Shown here piece after piece: positions 25,577-32,632 of a DNA stretch of 64,000 nucleotides; the stretch's first letter is position 1; each line of letters begins with the position of its first letter. The position numbers were made by a program, and so were the translations under genes. The notes below the pieces were generated by a model, which made no database searches, was not told where the DNA came from, and saw nothing but the letters and a program-made list of their open reading frames with translations. This DNA is from Fimbriimonas ginsengisoli Gsoil 348 (GTDB taxonomy: Bacteria; Armatimonadota; Fimbriimonadia; Fimbriimonadales; Fimbriimonadaceae), in NCBI RefSeq assembly GCF_000724625.1, contig NZ_CP007139.1:1054001-1118000 (forward strand), in the 5' to 3' direction.

Positions 25577-25773
25577 GGACGTGTCATACCGTATGCCGTG
25601 AAGCGGTTTGCCCGGCTTACACCTGTGCGGTAAAGAGGCTCGCAGTTTCAAACCATAAGGTTTCCGAGTCGGAAACAGTTCAGAAACAAGCCTCGGTTAA
25701 GATGGCATCGTAACCTGCTCGGGGCCGATGTGGATTCCGGGCTATGCGTAACGTCGCGCGCTCCGAGGAACCT

Positions 25774-26211
25774 ATGCGCGAAGATACGCTCACTCAATTG
25801 ATGGAAGGCTCGCTCGTCAGCGAGAGCCGTTTACAGTTTCTAACCCGGACCGGCAAGGCCGCGCCCCAGTTTTTGCAGGGCGTCTATCCGTTCGTCGGCG
25901 GCGGGATCGTAGATCTCGCGCCCCTCAACCGAGAGCTCTCTTTCGAGGTGCCGCGCGGAAAGTCCGCCGAAGTTCTATACATTCGGGCCGGCAATTCGTC
26001 GGAGGAGCTCGTATACCTAGCTTTGATGGCGGACGGCCGGCCGATCCGGTATGTCCCGCTCGGTCCCTCGGCCAACCAGCACGTTCCTCTTGCCATCGTG
26101 GAATCCCGTCCGGCGGGCACCCTCTTGGAGGTTTGGCTCGGCGCTCCTAAAGGGGTTACGGGCGTGATCGTCATCGACGTCGGTCTGGTCGTCGTTCAGT
26201 CCGGGGCATGA
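25774..26211 (+). CDS. hypothetical protein coupled to nasA
   Basis: This 145-residue protein has no recognised domain. It is mostly beta-strand-like (ELSFEVPRGKSAEVLYIRAG, GVTGVIVIDVGLVVVQSG) and lacks a signal peptide. ATG 25774 has GAGG five bases upstream and is preferred to ATG 25744. Its TGA overlaps the nasA ATG (ATGA), so it is almost certainly translated with the nitrate reductase. A role in nitrate reductase assembly or regulation is only a guess from position. Confidence 0.7.
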   Translation: MREDTLTQLMEGSLVSESRLQFLTRTGKAAPQFLQGVYPFVGGGIVDLAPLNRELSFEVPRGKSAEVLYIRAGNSSEELVYLALMADGRPIRYVPLGPSANQHVPLAIVESRPAGTLLEVWLGAPKGVTGVIVIDVGLVVVQSGA

Positions 26212-28280
26212 TCGCGACTCACTGCCCTTACTGCGCCCTCCAGTGCGGAATGAATCTGGCGTCAAGCGATGGCCGTATCGCGGTCCTTTCTCGTCCCGAT
26301 TTCCCAACCAACAAAGGAGGTCTGTGTTCCAAGGGTTGGACGTCCGCCTCCCTGCTCGATAGTCCTCAACGCCTCCTCAGTCCGCTGATGCGACGCGAAA
26401 AGGGGAGCCCGCTGGAACCGGTTTCCTGGAACGAGGCGATCGGTGAAATTTGCCGTCGCATCGCCGAGATACAGAAAGACCGCGGCGTCAATTCGATCGG
26501 GGTGTTCGGAGGGGGCGGCCTGACGAACGAGAAGGCGTACGCGCTCGGCAAGTTCGCCCGGGTCGCGCTACGCACATCCAACATCGATTACAACGGACGG
26601 TTCTGCATGTCGTCCGCGGCAGCGGCGAACATCCGCGCCTTTGGCATAGATCGCGGTCTTCCGTTTCCGATCGAGGACATCGCAAATACGGAAGCAATCC
26701 TGCTGGTGGGAAGCAACGTGGCCGAGACGATGCCGCCGATCATGCAGTACTTCGACGCGCAAAAAAGAGCTGGGGGGTGCTTGATCGTCGTCGACCCGCG
26801 CAAAACTCCCACCGCCACATCGGCGACCCTCCACCTTCAAACAACCCCGGGGACCGACCTCGCCCTTGCGAACGGCATGCTGCATATCGCCATCGAGGAG
26901 GGGGTTCTCGACGAGGAGTTTATCGCCAGTCGCACAAACGGATTCGATGCCGTGAAACGATCGGTCGCCTCTTATTGGCCGGACCGGGTCGAGCGAATGA
27001 CCGGCGTTCCCATCCAACAGCTTCGTCTCGCAGTCAAGTTGCTGGCCGAAGCTAAGTCCGCAATGATCCTTACGGCGAGAGGCGCCGAACAGCACTCGAA
27101 GGGCGTGGACACCGTCCTCAGCTTCATCAATCTCGCCCTCGCGCTCGGCAAGGTGGGCAAACCGAATTGCGGATACGGCTGCGTCACCGGCCAAGGCAAC
27201 GGTCAAGGTGGGCGGGAGCATGGCCAAAAGGCGGACCAACTCCCCGGCTATCGTCGAATCGATAACCCCGAGGCGCGCGCCCATATAGCCTCGGTGTGGG
27301 GAATCGAAGCGGCCGACCTACCTGGCCCCGGGCTTTCCGCCGTCGAGCTGCTGGGTTCGATCGGCACGGAACGAGGCATCGAAGCCCTGATCGTCATGGG
27401 CTCCAACCCGGTCGTTTCGGCTCCCAATGCGGGTCGAATCCGTGAAAAGCTCGCGGCATTGAAGCTGCTGGTCGTCTCGGACATTTTCCTGACGGAGACG
27501 GCGCTGCTTGCCGATGTTGTCCTACCCACCGCGCAATGGGCCGAGGAAGAGGGCACTATGACCAATCTAGAAGGCCGCGTCCTCCTTCGGCGCAAGGCGA
27601 CGGAGCCTCCCGTCGGGGTCAAAACCGACCTCGAAGTGATCAAGTTGCTGTCCGAAGGCTTGGGCCATGGCAGGTTCTTTTCCGACGAGCCCGCTAAGGT
27701 CTTCGAGGAGCTGGGCCGGGCTAGCGAGGGCGGCGTCGCCGACTACTCGGGGATCAGTTACGAGAGGATCGCCGCCGAGGACGGCGTCTTCTGGCCATGT
27801 CCCTCTTCGGACCATCCAGGAACCCCGCGTCTGTTTCTCGATCGATTCGCCACCCCAGATGGCAGGGCCCGATTTCACGCCGTGATGCACCGGCCGGCGG
27901 CCGAGGAGCCTGACGAGGACTACCCACTTTATCTCACTACCGGCCGGGTGATGGCTCACTACCAATCCGGCGCTCAAACCCGCCGCGTGAAGGAGCTCTC
28001 CGCTTCTTCACCAGAACCGTTCGTGGAGATGCATCCGGCGCTCGCAAGTCGCCTCAACACCGGGGACGGCTGCTTGGTCTCGGTCCGGACCCGGCGGGGC
28101 AGGGCCATCCTCAAGGCCAAGCTCACCCAATCCATTCGCCAGGACACGATCTTTGTGCCGTTCCACTGGGGGGGCCATGGTTCGGCGAACCTGCTGACCA
28201 ACCCGGCGCTCGACCCGGTTTCGAAAATGCCCGAATTCAAAGTTTGCGCGGCCAAGGTCGAGTCGATGGACGACGGCTAG
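26208..28280 (+). CDS. nasA: assimilatory nitrate reductase, catalytic subunit
   Basis: This 690-residue protein is a molybdopterin-guanine-dinucleotide oxidoreductase of the NarB/NasA type. The N-terminal [4Fe-4S] ligands are CPYCALQCGM and GGLCSKG. MGDs-binding segments include DYNGRFCMSSAAAA, VGSNVAETMPP and VMGSNPVVSAPNAG. The C-terminal MopB domain has LTTGRVMAHYQSGAQTRR and PFHWGG. There is no Tat signal, which fits a cytoplasmic assimilatory enzyme. It reduces nitrate to nitrite for NirBD encoded downstream. The usual C-terminal [2Fe-2S] extension of some NasA proteins is absent. Confidence 0.93.
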   Translation: MIATHCPYCALQCGMNLASSDGRIAVLSRPDFPTNKGGLCSKGWTSASLLDSPQRLLSPLMRREKGSPLEPVSWNEAIGEICRRIAEIQKDRGVNSIGVFGGGGLTNEKAYALGKFARVALRTSNIDYNGRFCMSSAAAANIRAFGIDRGLPFPIEDIANTEAILLVGSNVAETMPPIMQYFDAQKRAGGCLIVVDPRKTPTATSATLHLQTTPGTDLALANGMLHIAIEEGVLDEEFIASRTNGFDAVKRSVASYWPDRVERMTGVPIQQLRLAVKLLAEAKSAMILTARGAEQHSKGVDTVLSFINLALALGKVGKPNCGYGCVTGQGNGQGGREHGQKADQLPGYRRIDNPEARAHIASVWGIEAADLPGPGLSAVELLGSIGTERGIEALIVMGSNPVVSAPNAGRIREKLAALKLLVVSDIFLTETALLADVVLPTAQWAEEEGTMTNLEGRVLLRRKATEPPVGVKTDLEVIKLLSEGLGHGRFFSDEPAKVFEELGRASEGGVADYSGISYERIAAEDGVFWPCPSSDHPGTPRLFLDRFATPDGRARFHAVMHRPAAEEPDEDYPLYLTTGRVMAHYQSGAQTRRVKELSASSPEPFVEMHPALASRLNTGDGCLVSVRTRRGRAILKAKLTQSIRQDTIFVPFHWGGHGSANLLTNPALDPVSKMPEFKVCAAKVESMDDG

Positions 28281-28352
28281 TCCTCGCCCGCCCTTTCTTC
28301 GTGATGGGTGAGTTCGACGAAACCACCCAACCGGCCGTTTCGGAGGTTGATT

Positions 28353-29948
28353 TTGAAGCTCGCCAGTCTTAAGAACAGCGGGAACGCCCCCACTTTGTTC
28401 AGCGCTTTCCTACATTTCGATATCTCGTTTATGGTTTGGGTGATTCTTGGCGCCCTTGCGCCGTTCATCATGACGGACGCCGGGCTGACCGGGGAAAACC
28501 TACAGGTGACCCCGTCCGCCGCGATCACGAAGGCGGGACAATACACGCTCGTCGTTAAGGCAGCCGACCCCGCCAAGCATCAGCCCGGCAACGTCTACAA
28601 CCTGCTCATCAAGCCTGGCGCACCGGGGGTTGCCACCCGTTCGAGCGTGAAACCGGTCGAGGCGTTCGTGGTGAACAACGCGGATCCGGCCACCCTCGAT
28701 GCGGTAAACGCGCGGTCCCGGTTGATTCACGTTCAGCTTGGCTCGGGCGCAAAGGGGAACCCCAACGAAAACGTCGTCCCACTAAGCCCGATGAGCACCC
28801 TCGTCGCGGCCGGTCATTCATCGCAGCCGGTCGCCAACGGGTACCCGTCGTCGACCAAGCTGACCCTCATCGGCATTCCCCTGCTCGCGGCTGGGTTTTG
28901 GCGCATCATGATCGGGATCCTCGTCGATCGTCTCGGCGCCCGAAAGGTTGGCATTGCCTCTCTGTTCGTCACGCTCCTACCGTTGCTCCTCGGTTGGCAA
29001 TCGGCCACTTCGTACGGGATGCTGGTCTGCGTTGGAATCTTCCTCGGGGTCGCAGGCGCTTCGTTCGCGGTCGCTCTGCCGCTGGCTTCGCGCTGGTACC
29101 CACCCGAAATGCAGGGGATCGCGATGGGGATTGCGGGAGCTGGGAACTCGGGAACGGTTCTCGCCACGATTGCCGCGCCCTTGCTCGCTCAGCGGTTTGG
29201 CTGGCACGGCGTATTCGGATTGCTGGCGATTCCGGTTGCCTTGACTCTGGTCATCTTTACCCTCCTCGCCAAAGAACCTCCCCGAACGTCGCCGCCACTG
29301 CGGGCCGTGGACTTCAAAGCCGTCCTCGCAAGTACCGACCTTTGGCGCTTTTGCCTGCTCTACTTCGTCACCTTCGGCGGCTTTGTGGGGCTTTCCACGT
29401 TCGCCAACACTTTCTTCGTGGATCAATTCGACGCCCCCAAAGCGGCCGTTGGCCTGTGGACCTGGCCGTTCATCGTCGCGGGTTCGCTGTTGCGCCCGGT
29501 GGGTGGAGCGCTGGCCGACAGGTTCGGCGGGTTACGAATGCTCACCATCCTCTACGGGGTGGTGCTTGCCGCTTCGGTCGGCGTCGCCCTCTTTGTTCAC
29601 AGCTTCCCAGCAACTTGCCTCTTGCTCCTCTTCCTCATGGGCGCCCTCGGCATGGGCAACGGCTCGGTGTTTCAGCTCGTTCCGCAGCGATTCAAAAACG
29701 AGGTCGGTGTGGTTACCGGGCTCGTTGGCGCCGCGGGCGGAGTCGGCGGCTACTATCTCAACTTCGCGTTGGGCCACCTGCACGATGCGACGGGTACCTA
29801 CGCCTCTGGATTCGTCGCGGTGGGCGCGATCACGATAATCGCGATGGCGACGCTCAAAACCGCCCCCAACTGGTCGGCGATTTTCTCGGAGCCCTCCCGC
29901 CGGCTAGCCCCTTTGCCGGTCGGCACCCCCGCCGCTTCCATGGATTGA
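28353..29948 (+). CDS. narK: NarK-type nitrate/nitrite transporter with large first periplasmic loop
   Basis: This is a major facilitator protein with nitrate-porter features: FLHFDISFMVWVILGALAPF as helix 1, RIMIGILVDRLGARKVG, GIAGAGNSGTV and GLVGAAGGVGGYYLN (nitrate signature-like glycine-rich helices). GGAGG at 28342-28346 sits six bases before TTG 28353, making this start likely; GTG 28308 would add 15 residues. Between helix 1 and helix 2 there is an insertion of roughly 120 residues (from LTGENLQVTPS to NGYPSSTKL) where usual NarK proteins have about ten. It lies between nasA and nirB. Confidence 0.9.
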   Translation: MKLASLKNSGNAPTLFSAFLHFDISFMVWVILGALAPFIMTDAGLTGENLQVTPSAAITKAGQYTLVVKAADPAKHQPGNVYNLLIKPGAPGVATRSSVKPVEAFVVNNADPATLDAVNARSRLIHVQLGSGAKGNPNENVVPLSPMSTLVAAGHSSQPVANGYPSSTKLTLIGIPLLAAGFWRIMIGILVDRLGARKVGIASLFVTLLPLLLGWQSATSYGMLVCVGIFLGVAGASFAVALPLASRWYPPEMQGIAMGIAGAGNSGTVLATIAAPLLAQRFGWHGVFGLLAIPVALTLVIFTLLAKEPPRTSPPLRAVDFKAVLASTDLWRFCLLYFVTFGGFVGLSTFANTFFVDQFDAPKAAVGLWTWPFIVAGSLLRPVGGALADRFGGLRMLTILYGVVLAASVGVALFVHSFPATCLLLLFLMGALGMGNGSVFQLVPQRFKNEVGVVTGLVGAAGGVGGYYLNFALGHLHDATGTYASGFVAVGAITIIAMATLKTAPNWSAIFSEPSRRLAPLPVGTPAASMD

Positions 29949-30187: not shown

Positions 30188-32632
30188 GTGAGCCCAAAGC
30201 AAAGATTAGTCGTGATTGGCAACGGCATGGCCGGCGCCCGAACTGTCGAAGAGATCCTGGCCCGAGGTGGTCGAGACTCCTTCGACATCACCGTCCTCGG
30301 TGAGGAACCGCACGGGAACTACAACCGGATTCTCCTCTCCAAGGTGCTCAGCGGATCGCAGGATCCGAGCGAGATCCTTCTTAACCCGATCGACTGGTAT
30401 GCCGACAACGGAGTGACCCTCAAGACAAACTCCAAAGTGTCCTCAATCGACCGGGCCGCAAAGAACGTCCAAACCGCGGACGGCTCCGTCGTTCCTTACG
30501 ACCGGCTTATCATCGCCACCGGAAGCCGGCCCATGGTTCCGCCGTTCGGAGGGCTCCGCACCGATGACGGCGCGCTGAAGCCCGGCGTCTTCGTTTTCCG
30601 AACCATCGAAGACTGCGTCGACATCGCCGCTTACGCACGCAAATGCAAACGCGCCACCGTCATAGGCGGCGGGCTCCTCGGGTTGGAATGTGCGCGGGGA
30701 TTGCTCGAGCATGGCGTCGAGGTTCACGTCGTCCACCTCGGATCCCACCTCATGGAGATGCAGCTCGACCGCCAGGCCGGCGAGATCCTCAAGGAAACTC
30801 TGCGGACGATGGGGCTCCACGTTCATCTGGGCCGCTCCACGAAGTGCATCCTCGGAGATAACCAGGTCGAAGGTCTCGCCTTTGCAGATGGAGAAACTCT
30901 CGACTGCTGCATGACCGTCATCTCGTGCGGCATCGTCCCCAACGTCGAGTTGGCCAAAGATTGTGGCCTTACCGTCAAACGGGGGATCGTGACGGATGAC
31001 CAGATGCGGTCCGTCGACGATCCCGACATCTTTGCCGTTGGCGAATGCGCCGAGCACCGTGGACGGGTCTACGGCCTCGTAGCTCCGCTGTGGCACCAGG
31101 GTCAAGTCCTGGCCGATGTCATCACCGATACCAACCCGACCGCTCTCTATCCGGGTTCGAAATTAGCGACAAAGCTGAAGGTGATGGGCGTCGATCTGGC
31201 GACCATGGGGATCACCGAGCCGGCGCCGGACGACGAGGTCGTTCAATTCAACGAGTCGCGCCGCGGCCGATATAAGAAGCTGATCATCCGGGACGGAACG
31301 CTCGTCGGCGCGATTCTTCTTGGCGAAACCGAGAAGGCCGCGACCCTTCTTCAAGCCTTCGACCGAGGCTCCGCCCTGCCGGAAGATCGGGCACAACTCC
31401 TCTTCTCCCTCGAAGGAAACAAAGCCGAAGCTTCCGTAATCGACGCTCCCGACGACACGCAGATTTGTAACTGCAATGGCGTCTGTAAATCGGCGATCGT
31501 CCAGTGCGTTAAAAACGGCCGCAAGAGTCTGAAATCGGTGATGGACGCCACCCGAGCCGGCACCGGTTGCGGGTCGTGTAAGCACCAAGTTCAACAGCTC
31601 GTCGAGTGGGCGGCGGATGGCGCAGTGGAGGCCGACCCCACCATTCACTACTACGTTCCTGGCGTTCCGCTGGCCAAGCCCGAGTTGGTCGCCGCGGTAC
31701 GTGAACAGGGTCTGAAGTCGGTGTCCAGCGTCTTCGACGCTTTGGCCGGGGGCCAAGAAGACCCGTCGAGCAAGATGGGCCTGGCTTCCCTCCTGAAGCA
31801 AATCTGGGGCGCGGATTACGAGGACGAACGAGACGCCCGCTATATCAACGACCGCGTCCACGCCAATATTCAAAAGGACCGGACATTCTCCGTCATCCCC
31901 CGAATTTACGGCGGCGTCACTTCCCCCGACCAGCTACGCCGGATCGCCGACGTGGCGGACAAATACGAGGCGCGCTTGGTCAAGATCACTGGCGGGCAGA
32001 GGATCGACCTCCTGGGGATTAAGAAGGAAGATCTGCCGGACGTCTGGAAAGACTTGGGCATGCCGTCCGGCCACGCCTATGCGAAAGCGTTCCGAACTTG
32101 CAAGACCTGTGTCGGCACCGATTTCTGCCGCTACGGCCTCGGCGACAGCACCAAACTTGGCGTCGAGATCGAAACCCGATTCCAAGGTCTAGAGAGCCCC
32201 GGAAAGCTTAAGCTCGCCACCGCCGGTTGCCCCCGAAATTGCTCCGAAGCCTACGTAAAGGATGTCGGCGCGGTCGCCGTAGAAGGAGGGCGGTGGGAGA
32301 TCTACGTCGGCGGAGCCGCCGGAGCCCATGTCCGTAAGGGAGACCTCCTCTGTACGGTCGATTCCCACGCCGACGTTCTGCTGTTCGTTGGAAGGTTCCT
32401 CCAGTACTACCGGGAAAACGCGAAGTATCTTGAGCGGACTTACGGATTTGTCGAGCGGATCGGGATCGCCAAGATCCGTGAGGTCGTGGTGGAAGACAGC
32501 GAGGGTATCGCGACCCACCTGGACCACGCAATGCAGCAATCGGTCGACGCCTACGTCGACCCTTGGCTGGAGGCGGAGCAGCCGGTTTCGGTCCACCAGT
32601 TTGCGAGCCAGCTTGTGGGGGTGACCGGTTGA
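30188..32632 (+). CDS. nirB: NADH-dependent nitrite reductase, large subunit
   Basis: This 814-residue protein has the full NirB order. The FAD/NAD-binding pyridine nucleotide reductase spans residues 1-400 (VVIGNGMAGARTVEEIL, VIGGGLLGLECARGLLEHG). A BFD-like [2Fe-2S] domain follows (CNCNGVCKS and GTGCGSCK). Two ferredoxin-like half domains come next. The siroheme/[4Fe-4S] domain has CVGTDFC (C-x5-C) and CPRNC (C-x3-C). It reduces nitrite to ammonium with six electrons. The siroheme genes follow in the same cluster. It overlaps nirD by four bases (TTGA). Confidence 0.95.
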   Translation: MSPKQRLVVIGNGMAGARTVEEILARGGRDSFDITVLGEEPHGNYNRILLSKVLSGSQDPSEILLNPIDWYADNGVTLKTNSKVSSIDRAAKNVQTADGSVVPYDRLIIATGSRPMVPPFGGLRTDDGALKPGVFVFRTIEDCVDIAAYARKCKRATVIGGGLLGLECARGLLEHGVEVHVVHLGSHLMEMQLDRQAGEILKETLRTMGLHVHLGRSTKCILGDNQVEGLAFADGETLDCCMTVISCGIVPNVELAKDCGLTVKRGIVTDDQMRSVDDPDIFAVGECAEHRGRVYGLVAPLWHQGQVLADVITDTNPTALYPGSKLATKLKVMGVDLATMGITEPAPDDEVVQFNESRRGRYKKLIIRDGTLVGAILLGETEKAATLLQAFDRGSALPEDRAQLLFSLEGNKAEASVIDAPDDTQICNCNGVCKSAIVQCVKNGRKSLKSVMDATRAGTGCGSCKHQVQQLVEWAADGAVEADPTIHYYVPGVPLAKPELVAAVREQGLKSVSSVFDALAGGQEDPSSKMGLASLLKQIWGADYEDERDARYINDRVHANIQKDRTFSVIPRIYGGVTSPDQLRRIADVADKYEARLVKITGGQRIDLLGIKKEDLPDVWKDLGMPSGHAYAKAFRTCKTCVGTDFCRYGLGDSTKLGVEIETRFQGLESPGKLKLATAGCPRNCSEAYVKDVGAVAVEGGRWEIYVGGAAGAHVRKGDLLCTVDSHADVLLFVGRFLQYYRENAKYLERTYGFVERIGIAKIREVVVEDSEGIATHLDHAMQQSVDAYVDPWLEAEQPVSVHQFASQLVGVTG

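Follow-up and report, generated by a model that had tools for sequence, protein, structure and literature searches.

An additional extracytoplasmic domain predicted between TM1 and TM2 of a NarK-family nitrate transporter in Fimbriimonas ginsengisoli and related Armatimonadota

NarK is the textbook minimal nitrate transporter, and in standard MFS topology the loop that joins TM1 to TM2 is periplasmic. The protein described here, from F. ginsengisoli, resembles the NarK/NasA family (TIGR00886; E. coli NarK, 4U4T and 4JR9) in its 12-helix core, both substrate arginines, the glycine-rich nitrate signature helices and a nitrate operon, but E. coli NarK and 97 of 106 aligned homologues have a short TM1-TM2 loop where F. 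ginsengisoli NarK has a predicted folded domain. A folded extracellular domain in the same loop is described for SLC22 MFS transporters, which carry anions or cations (OAT1, URAT1 and OCTN2); the glycans of the OAT1 domain matter for localisation, and the URAT1 domain formed dimers on grids that were ascribed by the authors to high protein concentration (PMC10643130, PMC11528023). The likeness of SLC22 to the insert is one of position only. SLC22 is not a family-level relative of NarK, and its extracellular domain (ECD) is glycosylated; when the NarK model was compared with URAT1 and OCTN2, about 370-375 residues aligned, which is the size of the MFS core, and the ECD was not superposed on the insert. 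Plant NRT2 offers a different parallel, being a nitrate MFS transporter aided by an extra component, the separate partner NAR2, which it needs for localisation and activity (PMC4232926). NAR2, however, is a separate protein, whereas the insert lies within the NarK chain and is likened to NAR2 without any homology seen.

The window analysed, a stretch of 64,000 nucleotides, is part of a single 5,231,762-base chromosome, and as judged from the genes around it narK belongs to a nitrate-assimilation operon with the following features.

25744-26211, + strand: small 155-aa protein, first gene of the operon, conserved in nasC/narK loci
26208-28280, + strand: nasC-like assimilatory nitrate reductase catalytic subunit (NF047855, E 1.2e-261, under the curated cut-off)
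28342-28346, + strand: GGAGG ribosome-binding site read from the sequence, 6 nt 5' of the narK TTG
28353-29948, + strand: narK coding sequence, TTG start, 531 aa, NarK-family MFS nitrate/nitrite transporter
30188-32632, + strand: nirB, nitrite reductase large subunit (TIGR02374, 835 bits against a cut-off of 578)

The TTG at 28353 was taken as the start of narK because of the GGAGG upstream and because homologues begin, with MKLxDLK, exactly at that point of the alignment, and the open reading frame put forward in the earlier note is real. The gene is adjoined by nasC upstream and nirB downstream, a linkage to nitrate/nitrite metabolism in keeping with the NarK family, and the nasC-like gene is syntenic with narK in the insert-bearing loci. 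Farther along, inspection of the sequence pointed to nirD-like, response-regulator-like and siroheme-synthesis-like genes.

The product of narK matched Pfam MFS_1 (E 6e-39) and TIGR00886 (E 5.6e-69), and its nearest solved structure, by sequence as well as by fold, is E. coli NarK; the AlphaFold2 model has the NarK core fold, with Z 47 and rmsd 2.1 over 371 residues aligned to 4iu8. Its score against TIGR00886 was nevertheless 233 bits, with the best stretch running from TM2 onward, below the curated cut-off of 311.7 bits. Scores of 239-252 bits were obtained for the insert-bearers, and of 297 and 324 bits for two insert-less homologues (L068 and L072, respectively), and we attribute the shortfall largely to the insert breaking the profile, so that an otherwise ordinary NarK falls under a standard NCBIfam cut-off owing to its insert. 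The elements of the protein to which the argument refers are listed below.

28386-28469, + strand: TM1, residues 12-39 (AlphaFold2/DSSP helices 12-29 and 31-39, pLDDT about 94)
28485-28847, + strand: inserted, predicted extracytoplasmic domain, residues 45-165 (folded part 48-161), without counterpart in 97 of 106 homologues and kept in eight other Armatimonadota
28848-28934, + strand: TM2, helix 166-194, containing R184, the equivalent of E. coli NarK R89
29493-29495, + strand: R381, the equivalent of E. coli NarK R305 and second nitrate-binding arginine, by alignment to 4u4t

Both nitrate-coordinating arginines, R184 and R381, are kept and invariant, and the glycine-rich nitrate signature helices are retained as well; therefore, F. 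ginsengisoli NarK is expected to transport nitrate by the NarK mechanism. Since the insert lies between TM1 and TM2 and the cytoplasmic MFS motif VDRLGARK comes after TM2, MFS topology predicts that it is periplasmic.

The 106 homologues, gathered by a search of the phylum Armatimonadota and a scan of 84,980 species genomes, are bimodal in the distance from the TM1 glycine to the TM2 arginine, which is 32-37 residues in 97 of them and 147-158 in the other nine. With 151 residues, F. ginsengisoli NarK is among the nine, in agreement with the earlier claim of some 120 extra residues after helix 1 (119-121 depending on the borders chosen). The search for homologues with the same insertion that the earlier note had proposed yielded eight Armatimonadota relatives with a matching in-frame domain, 56-70% identical to the F. 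ginsengisoli protein. A profile of the insert run against 291 Armatimonadota genomes retrieved exactly these nine NarKs and no free-standing copy of the domain, and a six-peptide scan of the 84,980 genomes, which included the insert peptide AKGNPNEN, had no insert-bearers other than those of Armatimonadota in the best 80 of its 91 matches. Within what was searched, the insert is therefore as unusual for NarK as had been supposed, being found in nine of 106 homologues and in one phylum. Sequence and profile searches of the insert against Pfam, NCBIfam, PHROGs and the PDB gave no significant match, searches of plasmids and phages did not find it, and no paper describing a NarK with such a domain was found in the open-access literature. 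So far as these searches reach, the insert belongs to no recognised sequence family and is a new variation on the known NarK transporter family.

The small protein that opens the operon has no Pfam or NCBIfam match and carries the conserved motif LQGVYPFxGxG...FRAGN...PxRYFPxG...HVxL. A second copy of it lies 3' of narK in four loci (L062, L063, L065 and L035), and in genome G021 it stands alone beside ompR-like and molybdenum-cofactor-type genes. It is unrelated to the insert by BLASTP and by profile, and the idea that the two travel together was rejected, given that the small protein is also present in the insert-less G130/G132, in G085/G087 and in G021, which has no close NarK.

In the AlphaFold2 model of the full protein (38 sequences; mean pLDDT 87.6, pTM 0.87), the insert, at pLDDT mostly 83-94, is predicted to form a compact beta-rich domain with strands at residues 48-54, 64-69, 81-88, 103-108, 125-129, 140-143 and 158-161 and helices at 112-121 and 147-152. 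When the insert was modelled alone (seven sequences) the strands were unchanged, at pLDDT 78.9, with the five models spread from 49 to 79. The beta character read earlier from the sequence thus reappears as seven strands, both in context and alone, and the description of the segment as rich in Pro, Ala and Val also holds (36% P+A+V). Foldseek found no significant relative of the insert, the phage tail sheath matches having E 0.07 or worse, and VIA-align against domains of twelve phage tail sheath proteins gave Z 5.0-6.8, a range that is common for this tool and under the level of kinship; as these fold matches are sub-threshold, kinship with tail sheath domains is not claimed.

Comparison of the coding sequences indicates that the insert is kept by purifying selection, with dN/dS in the closest pairs of 0.062/1.116 (~0.06) for L064/L065 and 0.049/0.483 (~0.10) for L067/L035. 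Mean identity among the insert-bearers is 61% in the insert and about 73% in the helices, and 33 positions of the insert do not vary among the nine proteins, including some at both junctions (LTGxNL and QxxANG), the polar motif PNENV and the lysines K75 and K87. All nine inserts are free of Cys and basic, with a pI of 9.4-9.9.

In a FastTree phylogeny of the 106 proteins, two insert-less Armatimonadota NarKs (L041 and L042), whose core is about 60% identical and whose narK adjoins nirB and nasC, nest inside the insert-bearing clade. Monophyly of the insert-bearers was rejected by AU (p 0.009, and p 0.024 and 0.008 when the taxa and models were changed); with the halves of the core alignment taken separately it was not rejected (p 0.08-0.09), the direction being the same, and the placement of the two proteins within the clade is weakly supported. 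The best reading of this tree suggests that the insert was gained once and later lost once, although in L041 and L042 the TM1-TM2 loop is precisely of the common short length, an outcome that a simple deletion would not necessarily produce. This nesting indicates that a NarK in such an operon can do without the domain, which argues that it is unneeded for basic transport. Both insert-less proteins have Glu at the equivalent of V464 in the TM11 nitrate signature (GGEGGFYLN), a position that is Val in all insert-bearers. No compensating core changes were detected on their periplasmic side (6 of 68 sites against 10 of 108, p = 1), so that evolutionary support for docking of the domain on the transporter face comes from the conserved junctions alone.

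In the 85 genomes searched, F. ginsengisoli was the only member of Fimbriimonadaceae with this NarK, other matches in the family aligning from TM2 onward only and at low identity, and this suggests either horizontal acquisition of the nitrate operon from other Armatimonadota or its loss elsewhere.

A second NarK-like protein is encoded in the same genome (G000:C1:3510661-3512259; L157 10662-12260, - strand), where its gene sits with a nasC-like gene and other redox genes, and the same type occurs in many Fimbriimonadaceae (L002, L004, L006, L009, L018, L025 and L029). It also has an extra extracytoplasmic module, but at another site and of unrelated sequence: it lies between TM9 and TM10, spans about 90 residues (SPGEGxLAD...SWQEPxVxxGxxVKKxxLxARG), and has a barrel-sandwich look and no significant Pfam match. 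Two secreted proteins were noticed beside related narK genes. In a Chthonomonas-type locus (L066 7823-9298) a 491-residue protein follows narK and has, from its first residues only, the look of an outer-membrane porin, through which nitrate might enter. In a Capsulimonas-type genome, G105 (L158 8510-10654), a 714-residue protein is encoded just upstream of narK, apparently in the narK/nasC interval, and L067 has a 2.1 kb gap where G105 has this gene.

As to what the domain does, the reading that we prefer, and hold to be about evenly poised between right and wrong, is that of an accessory extracytoplasmic domain in an SLC22-like position, fixed to the N-terminal helix bundle on its outer side beside the TM1/TM2 gate, where it would stabilise or shield the transporter or dock it, either to itself or to some component of the envelope. 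The transport cycle would then be that of an ordinary NarK, through R184 and R381, and the domain would modulate transport and not carry it out; its basic surface might help to gather nitrate at the mouth of the transporter. A modulating role, which we infer by exclusion and from position, is favoured over catalysis because of the SLC22 precedent at the same loop. That the insert is an artefact, whether a frameshift, a misassembly, an intein or an intron, is refuted, with practically nothing left in its favour: it is in frame in nine genomes, its GC (0.645) is like that of the rest of narK (0.622), its borders lack direct repeats, and on inspection the junctions lack intein-type terminal residues. 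The sequencing or annotation error named earlier as a possible undoing of the observation is likewise dismissed by eight independently sequenced genomes with the insertion at the same in-frame site. It is also quite improbable that the insert is tolerated with little function and retained merely as hard to remove; its somewhat faster evolution relative to the helices and its single loss are what such a segment might present, but the low dN/dS and the invariant residues across divergent genera, together with a confidently modelled fold, speak against this explanation.

The two remaining alternatives give the domain a more specific task. It could, in line with the sensing or gating proposed in the earlier note, bind or sense nitrate or nitrite and hand it over to the transporter or gate it, for which its place in the loop between the helices of the outer gate, the uniformly basic inserts and the invariant PNENV, K75 and K87 are suggestive; we consider this unlikely, given that sequence, profile and fold searches matched the insert to no binding-protein family and that the domain was naturally lost in L041 and L042, with narK there still accompanied by nirB and nasC. 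Rather improbable, in our estimate, is a one-chain counterpart of NAR2, serving membrane delivery and high-affinity uptake: NRT2, a relative within the MFS nitrate family, relies on such a separate partner (PMC4232926), and the insert is conserved and predicted to be extracytoplasmic, but most NarKs need no partner, and no NAR2 match appeared in Pfam or among the PDB fold matches, where neither a weak match nor the lack of one is proof of anything.

Close NarK relatives, some with and some without the outer domain but in operons of one kind, provide a natural comparison for the role of outer domains on MFS transporters, a question that also stands for SLC22. It is conceivable, if distinctly doubtful, that the fused basic domain of a new family is a built-in NAR2-like or anion-funnel module that raises nitrate affinity in oligotrophic soil Armatimonadota; if so, it would be a single-chain answer to the two-protein solution of plants.
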